DNA of 64,000 nucleotides from positions 62,001 to 126,000 of the forward strand of contig PLZB01000029.1 of assembly GCA_003151955.1 (NCBI GenBank), written 5' to 3'. The DNA comes from Acidimicrobiaceae bacterium (GTDB lineage: Bacteria > Actinomycetota > Acidimicrobiia > Acidimicrobiales > UBA8190). The notes beneath the pieces are model-generated. The model worked only from the letters and a program-made list of their open reading frames with translations. It did no database searches and was not told the origin of the DNA. How positions within the stretch are numbered: the stretch's first letter is position 1; each line of letters opens with the position of its first letter. Below are positions 24,308-28,101 of this stretch, in pieces. The position numbers and the translations under genes are program-made.

Positions 24308-24320
24308 CCCGGCTCAGCCG
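24301..24320. terminator. Inverted repeat containing both convergent stop codons
   Basis: CGGCTGA (24301-24307) and TCAGCCG (24314-24320) form a perfect 7-bp stem with a 6-nt loop. One arm ends in the isomerase TGA and the other begins with the complement of the DUF2510 stop. It is a likely minimal bidirectional terminator. Confidence 0.5.
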
Positions 24321-24889
24321 GTCACCCACGCCGAGCCGTCCCAGCGGGTCGTCCCGGTCCAGGCGGCCCCGTCCCAGTAGCGCCGGCGGGCCGGGTCGTC
24401 GTCGACCGGGTACCAACCCGGCTCGGTCTCGGTCGCGGTCTCGGTCGCGGTCGCGGTCGCGGTCAGCACCAGCGTGACGGAGCTGACGGTGCCCTCGGCG
24501 GCGGGGTCCGCCACCATCGGCAGGGGGGTCCCGGTGAAGGCGAGGCCCGCTTCCGCCGGGTTGGGGTCGCCGGCGAGGGCGCTGGCCAGGAGGTCGTCCA
24601 GGTCGTAGCCGGCCGGGCCCGGCGCCGGATCCGGGTCGAACCCGAACCTGGGGAGCCCGTCGGCTCCCTTCGGTGCGGACTCCTCGACGATGGCATCGGG
24701 CTCCTCTGCCGCCTCGGGCCGGGTGTAGACGCCGGCGGGCGGAGGAAGGGTCACGACCGCCTTCTCCTCCGTCTCAGGAGCATCCCGGACCAGCTCCCCG
24801 GCTCCACTGGACGCATAGCCCCCCTCGTCGAAGATGACGACGCCGCCTCGGTGCTTCGAGCTTCCGATCTCACGGTTCCATTGGACCAC
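24314..24889 (-). CDS. DUF2510-domain protein
   Basis: A 191-residue acidic protein. The last 37 residues are a DUF2510 module (PGWYPVDDDPARRRYWDG...W), usually found fused to membrane or signalling proteins in actinobacteria. The rest is low-complexity Pro/Ala/Glu-rich, including a Thr/Ala/Glu stretch coded by hexanucleotide repeats. No signal peptide or membrane helix is visible. GTG 24889 follows GGGAGG (24897-24902) by 7 nt. Function unknown; a protein-interaction adaptor is the most one can suggest. Confidence 0.8.
   Translation of the reverse strand: MVQWNREIGSSKHRGGVVIFDEGGYASSGAGELVRDAPETEEKAVVTLPPPAGVYTRPEAAEEPDAIVEESAPKGADGLPRFGFDPDPAPGPAGYDLDDLLASALAGDPNPAEAGLAFTGTPLPMVADPAAEGTVSSVTLVLTATATATETATETEPGWYPVDDDPARRRYWDGAAWTGTTRWDGSAWVTG
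24424..24465. repeat. Hexanucleotide repeat in the DUF2510 gene
   Basis: Seven tandem CGGTCT/CGGTCG/CGGTCA units code alternating Thr-Ala/Glu residues. Units in frame could vary in number without disrupting the protein. Confidence 0.8.
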
Positions 24890-25000: not shown

Positions 25001-25006
25001 TACCAT
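25001..25006 (+). promoter_or_regulatory. -10 element of the structured RNA
   Basis: TACCAT ends 6 nt before 25013, exactly where the outermost helix of the predicted RNA begins. A transcription start at 25012-25013 is expected. No clear -35 box is present at 16-18 bp. Confidence 0.5.
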
Positions 25007-25012
25007 CTGCCC

Positions 25013-25286
25013 GTGGACCGTGTCCGGGTCTGTGGTTGAAAGTCGAAGCCAGTCGCAGGCGAAACGACCCACGTAAGGCAACTCGTGGTTGCTGAGCATG
25101 GTGCGGCTTAGAGGTAAGTCCTGCCCACCGCGGCACCGACAGTCGGTGCCCGGGGGAGAAGGAGGGAAGCAGGTCCGCCAGGTGCTGCCGGGTCGCCCGT
25201 CCATCGGGTGGCCGCCGGCGCCGGATCCCCAACTCCTCAGCAGGCGGGTGTGGGGCCAAAGACCAGGTCAGCCGGACACGGTTCAC
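25013..25286 (+). ncRNA. Structured non-coding RNA candidate upstream of secA
   Basis: The 467-bp gap between the DUF2510 gene and secA has no plausible ORF but strong RNA structure. The ends pair in a 15-bp helix (25013-25027 with 25272-25286, one G-U pair). Inside are hairpins 25042-25050/25058-25068, 25077-25082/25088-25093 (its loop can pair with 25070-25073 as a pseudoknot), 25094-25097/25106-25109, an 11-bp bulged stem 25128-25139/25143-25153 capped outside by 25120-25124/25169-25173, a three-part arm 25174-25177, 25187-25199 with 25205-25225, and 25227-25231/25251-25255. The unpaired patches are purine-rich. A -10 hexamer ends 6 nt before its first base. The 3' flank (25287-25341) holds only the secA promoter region. 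In other actinobacteria hpf/raiA usually sits before secA, so a raiA-motif RNA is one candidate; I cannot confirm the family. Confidence 0.6.
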
Positions 25287-25341: not shown

Positions 25342-25347
25342 TAAGCT
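25342..25347 (+). promoter_or_regulatory. -10 element of secA (leaderless)
   Basis: TAAGCT ends 9 nt before ATG 25357, separating secA transcription from the upstream structured RNA. Confidence 0.5.
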
Positions 25348-25356
25348 CGTCTCCCC

Positions 25357-28087
<2,731 letters not shown>

Positions 28088-28101
<14 letters not shown>

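Follow-up and report, generated by a model that had tools for sequence, protein, structure and literature searches.

The closest described system is the raiA motif RNA (Rfam RF03072, also called ModT), for which abundance, stability and trans action in vivo are known from clostridial members only. The C. difficile RNA is an abundant, stable, trans-acting molecule expressed from a housekeeping promoter; strains in which it is deleted enter stationary phase late and have raised c-di-GMP (PMC11706538). The C. acetobutylicum raiA RNA, of ~210 nt, is known from cryo-EM (PDB 9CXF, 9ELY; described in PMC11751092), and raiA RNA is reported to be a monomer by the same technique (PMC12286853). The genomic neighbour is raiA/hpf in 66% of cases, a figure that PMC11706538 quotes from Soares 2024. 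The same paper presents an ortholog from Acetohalobium arabaticum as actinomycetal (Actinomycetota); this species belongs to the Bacillota, Halanaerobiales (NCBI taxonomy), and the study is therefore without a test of an actinomycete member. Other ornate bacterial RNAs, including OLE, ROOL and GOLLD, are likewise conserved, structured and free-standing.

The actinomycete copy described here lies in a stretch of 64,000 nucleotides, referred to as the window, from an Acidimicrobiales-like MAG. Comparison of the window with all of Rfam 15 discloses a single family above threshold, RF03072, matched at 25019-25280 (+) over the full length of the model (positions 1-209 of 209) with 149.4 bits versus a gathering score of 101.3, and the genome contains this one copy only. 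The segment 25013-25286 is a bona fide raiA/ModT copy, belonging to a known family and not to a new class (Table 1). The first-pass annotation, made from the letters of the window, had proposed an independent structured RNA of 274 nt upstream of secA, either raiA-motif-like or of a new class, to be checked by an Rfam covariance-model search and by covariation in relatives; the RNA and the first of the two guesses stand, whereas the new class is ruled out by the RF03072 match. The same annotation had set aside tmRNA, SRP RNA and RNase P, in agreement with ARAGORN, which finds no tRNA or tmRNA gene within the window, and with Rfam, where 6S, OLE, ROOL and GOLLD are also without a match. The MFE fold of 25013-25286 reaches -138.8 kcal/mol, compared with an average of -119.95 for shuffled sequences (z -3.57), with 0 of 200 shuffles equally stable, and the structure stops at the terminal helix, since the next 70 nt, between the RNA and secA, display no excess structure (z +1.37). 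As a whole, the locus is very probably a single-copy raiA/ModT gene with its own -10 box and the raiA fold, the product of which would act in trans without HPF.

Table 1. Coordinates of the RNA gene, its structural elements and the adjoining secA gene within the window
Feature	Position	Strand	Remarks
Predicted -10 box of the RNA gene, TACCAT	25001..25006	+	direct reading; ends 6 nt before 25013
raiA (ModT) noncoding RNA, 274 nt	25013..25286	+	RF03072 match 25019-25280; covariation
Terminal helix P1, 5' strand	25013..25027	+	GTGGACCGTGTCCGG, pairs with 25272-25286; 25013-25018 extend beyond the Rfam model; pairs kept in homologues
P1b and P1c, 5' strands	25030..25037	+	partners 25269-25271 and 25261-25265; 100% paired in 71 homologues, nearly invariant
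P3 hairpin	25042..25068	+	P3a 25042-25045/25065-25068, P3b 25048-25050/25058-25060; pairs 100% kept
P5 hairpin	25078..25092	+	98.3% paired; double changes at 4/5 pairs
pk-2 half	25099..25100	+	pairs with 25257-25258; 2 bp; 95.1% paired
pk-1 partner, UGCGGCU	25102..25108	+	7 bp with P3 loop 25051-25057, AGUCGCA
P6, 5' strand	25120..25124	+	partner 25240-25244; 100% paired in 71 sequences
P7 hairpin (variable region)	25133..25149	+	86.1% paired; double changes at 6/7 pairs
P8 arm	25160..25237	+	25160-25164/25233-25237; inner helix 25182-25186/25217-25221
Terminal helix P1, 3' strand	25272..25286	+	CCGGACACGGTTCAC; covariation, same basis as 5' strand
secA -10 box, TAAGCT	25342..25347	+	near-leaderless secA transcript predicted
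secA (914 aa), predicted separate transcription unit	25357..28101	+	Pfam SecA domains, E 1e-122

A leaderless small open reading frame starting from an ATG/GTG at the 5' end of the RNA was also considered and rejected, because (i) the frame in the window, which reads GTG GAC CGT GTC CGG GTC TGT GGT TGA, stops after 8 codons, and (ii) the length of the P5 loop shifts by 1-2 nt in the homologous loci L008 and L011. Mechanically called open reading frames also overlap the RNA on either strand. Further upstream, a tandem CGGTCG/CGGTCTCGGTCG hexamer array of 6.8 copies (window 24424-24464) forms part of the minus-strand gene for a DUF2510 protein (24314-24889), where it codes for a short Ala/Thr/Glu-rich repeat.

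The structural analysis relies on homologues from (i) the whole-genome sets for the family and the order and (ii) a set of 80 secA loci taken from named Acidimicrobiales-like MAGs, where the RNA was gathered by profile search because a strict regular expression missed most homologues. The two ends of the RNA form a helix of 15 bp, one of them a G-U (25016/25283), exactly as first read, and this terminal helix goes far beyond chance and covaries in relatives: across 71 homologues P1a is 97.0% paired with double changes at 8 of 9 pairs, and the 6-bp extension past the Rfam model is 83.1% paired with double changes at 6 of 6, compared with 23-48% for slid versions used as a control (29-48% for the extension). 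When every pair of columns is ranked without reference to the model, P1, the P1 extension, P5, P7, P8 and one pk-1 pair come near the top, with 25160/25237 in P8 as the top covarying pair. In a 30-sequence alignment, the 56 pairs including both pseudoknots comprise 96.4% standard pairs versus 88.5% for shuffled and 31-48% for slid controls, and their covariation score is 0.267 versus 0.114, no shuffle matching any of five measures; such shuffle and slide controls on alignments model phylogeny only in part.

The P3 loop (25051-25057) forms one half of pk-1, which links it to the P5-P6 junction in a layout that matches the cryo-EM structure described in PMC11751092. This pseudoknot is 99.6% paired in 71 sequences, with one pair occurring as UG/CG/UA and the pair 25057/25102 as AU/GC. 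One nucleotide separates it from pk-2, as in PMC11751092; the latter varies little among the 71 sequences, and its covariation support is accordingly weak. A possible pseudoknot had been anticipated in the first reading of the fold, correctly as to its presence but not as to its number, which is two. In the Rfam consensus for RF03072, P3 is missing and pk-1 is drawn as if it were nested; the published cryo-EM structure and the pairs conserved in the present homologues show otherwise.

Compared to RF03072 members, the window copy preserves P1, P3, P5, P6, P7 and P8 together with a pk-1 of 7 bp and a pk-2 of 2 bp, carries invariant blocks such as CTGTGGTTG, GTAAG, GTGTGGGG and CCAGGTCAG, and has a predicted promoter of its own. 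Its predicted secondary structure, pseudoknots included, agrees with that of the C. acetobutylicum RNA, as judged by sequence against the description in PMC11751092, the RNA being 274 nt long in the window versus ~210 nt. Differences from the Rfam model include (i) the terminal helix, which at 15 bp is 6 bp longer, and (ii) the long P7/P8 arm, with a match of 262 nt versus 209 model positions. The window copy is thus a well-supported addition to an RNA family already known, and its genomic surroundings are informative.

The TACCAT hexamer that the first-pass annotation had placed 6 nt before the first paired base is where it was said to be, with a predicted transcription start at ~25013, and 67 of 70 homologous loci have a TANNNT hexamer in the matching interval before the RNA, versus 2 of 70 in a control interval; a consensus -35 element was not found upstream of the RNA gene. 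For secA, a TANNNT starts 15-17 nt before the ATG in 18/18 loci in which the RNA lies directly before secA without hpf, and a near-leaderless secA mRNA is predicted on that account. In the window itself, 9 nt lie between TAAGCT and the ATG of secA, and no Shine-Dalgarno sequence is present (25342-25359). Because the RNA and secA each have a conserved -10 box, the RNA is very probably a separate gene with its own predicted promoter and not a secA leader, as had been suspected from the two boxes in the window. A search for an intrinsic terminator in the interval that separates the two found none, so read-through into secA is possible.

This arrangement bears on the classification of RF03072 in Rfam as Cis-reg; riboswitch, according to which the RNA would be a cis-acting leader or riboswitch controlling secA here and hpf in relatives. 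The position of the RNA, which shares the strand of secA and precedes it by 70 nt, and of hpf, directly downstream of the RNA in most relatives, is compatible with such a role, which is nevertheless highly improbable: secA's own -10 box, conserved in 18/18 loci, leads to rejection of a secA leader on promoter evidence; the downstream gene differs among loci, being hpf, secA, or secA after >800 nt without hpf; the RNA is retained after hpf loss; the spacer is unstructured, with neither a terminator nor another expression platform found in it; and clostridial members complement in trans (PMC11706538).

An hpf neighbour is common in the RF03072 family and not a defining feature of it; at the window copy the neighbour is secA, and PF02482 and PF16321 are without a match in the whole assembly, which is 94.67% complete, so that absence of hpf before secA, as first noticed, is certain and its absence elsewhere likely. 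The RNA is present in 17/17 genomes of the window's family, and a PF02482 (HPF) gene occurs in 15 same-family genomes, directly downstream of the RNA and on the same strand in 14 of them. The further suggestion of an RNA standing in for hpf is ruled out by synteny, since RNA-hpf-secA is the usual order (14/15 family genomes with an HPF gene): the RNA did not replace hpf, and the best reading is that hpf was later lost next to a retained RNA in the window lineage. One family member, G006, is also devoid of hpf and shows the same RNA-secA order and the same TAAGCT box. The RNA is kept without hpf alongside in the window, in G006, in a 15-locus clade and in locus L148, and at the order level 7 of 34 RNA-bearing genomes are without any PF02482 gene. 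On the SecA tree, a quick tree for which the direction of change was not inferred by method, the RNA-directly-before-secA order needs three changes (window lineage, 15-locus clade and L148), and all other classified members of the window's closest 10-row clade have hpf. Some relatives (G007:C68, G009:C308, G013:C273 and G015:C374) contain a second open frame with two tandem S30AE C-terminal domains, apart from the short, RNA-adjoining hpf, possibly a divergent double-domain hibernation-like protein.

A survey of 218 actinomycete genomes (completeness >=95% requested; window genome itself 94.67%) found the RNA in 72, always as one copy. Among these 72, an HPF gene is present in 66 and a GGDEF gene in 59; the occurrence of RNA-bearing actinomycete genomes without any HPF (6/72) or any GGDEF gene (13/72, including the one-contig genomes G084 and G253) is new here. 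Three RNA-bearing genomes, G038, G220 and G231, have neither, and may represent one evolutionary event because all share one family code. In the 60-genome order set, in which RNA-lacking genomes too were surveyed for HPF and GGDEF, no clear association of the RNA with HPF or GGDEF was found. The window genome (G000) has at least 43-50 GGDEF matches, the most in the 60-genome relatives set. Given the 6 genomes without HPF and the 13 without GGDEF, neither HPF nor c-di-GMP is a universal partner of the RNA, and the survey indicates that both are excluded as universal requirements.

These counts weigh on two proposals for the action of the RNA. According to the first, it acts through the ribosome-hibernation factor HPF, the raiA gene product, for instance as a partner or regulator, as the neighbourhood in most family members, that in 66% of published cases (PMC11706538, citing Soares 2024) and the 66 HPF-containing genomes of the phylum sample might suggest. 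A genome that lost hpf yet kept the RNA speaks against an action through hpf; S30AE domains are entirely absent from ten RNA-bearing genomes (the window genome, G006, G029, G030, G031, G038, G052, G220, G231 and G237), and the RNA-hpf association at the secA loci sampled is not significant (Fisher p 0.19), which renders the proposal very unlikely. According to the second, the main effect of the RNA is on the level of c-di-GMP, as put forward for C. difficile, where modT deletion raises c-di-GMP, tied to a sporulation defect (PMC11706538); the >=43 GGDEF matches of the window genome are in line with it. The absence of a GGDEF domain from 13/72 RNA-bearing actinomycete genomes that are ~95% complete or more, G084 and G253 among them as single contigs, and the absence of HPF as well from G038, G220 and G231, make this proposal very unlikely too.

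The preferred account is that of an RNA acting in trans. Transcription would start near 25013 from the predicted -10 box, and the product is predicted to adopt the raiA architecture, with the terminal P1, variable P7/P8 arms, and a P3 loop that pk-1 and pk-2 hold against the P5-P6 junction; a separate, predicted secA promoter follows the RNA gene. By analogy with the clostridial members, the RNA would accumulate in growing cells as an abundant, stable and free-standing molecule and would help the cell to move from growth to stationary phase. We infer from the same members that the window copy is trans-acting: it may work as a compact molecule with a bound protein or ligand, or possibly as a catalyst, presumably without action on whichever gene adjoins downstream and, in the window lineage, without HPF, the gene for which would have been lost.

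raiA RNA is a widely conserved structured bacterial RNA, and the locus and the survey together narrow the hypotheses on its function. The window locus and its relatives decouple the RNA from its namesake gene, the phylum survey decouples it from c-di-GMP, and the results argue for revising the cis-regulatory label of RF03072 in Rfam. There is, in our judgement, an even chance that raiA RNA provides a housekeeping activity needing neither HPF nor c-di-GMP, such as RNA processing, catalysis or the sensing of a common metabolite. The survey names genomes where a simpler raiA RNA function could be sought and, if such an activity exists, the lineages that keep the RNA after losing HPF and GGDEF would be the place to find it.
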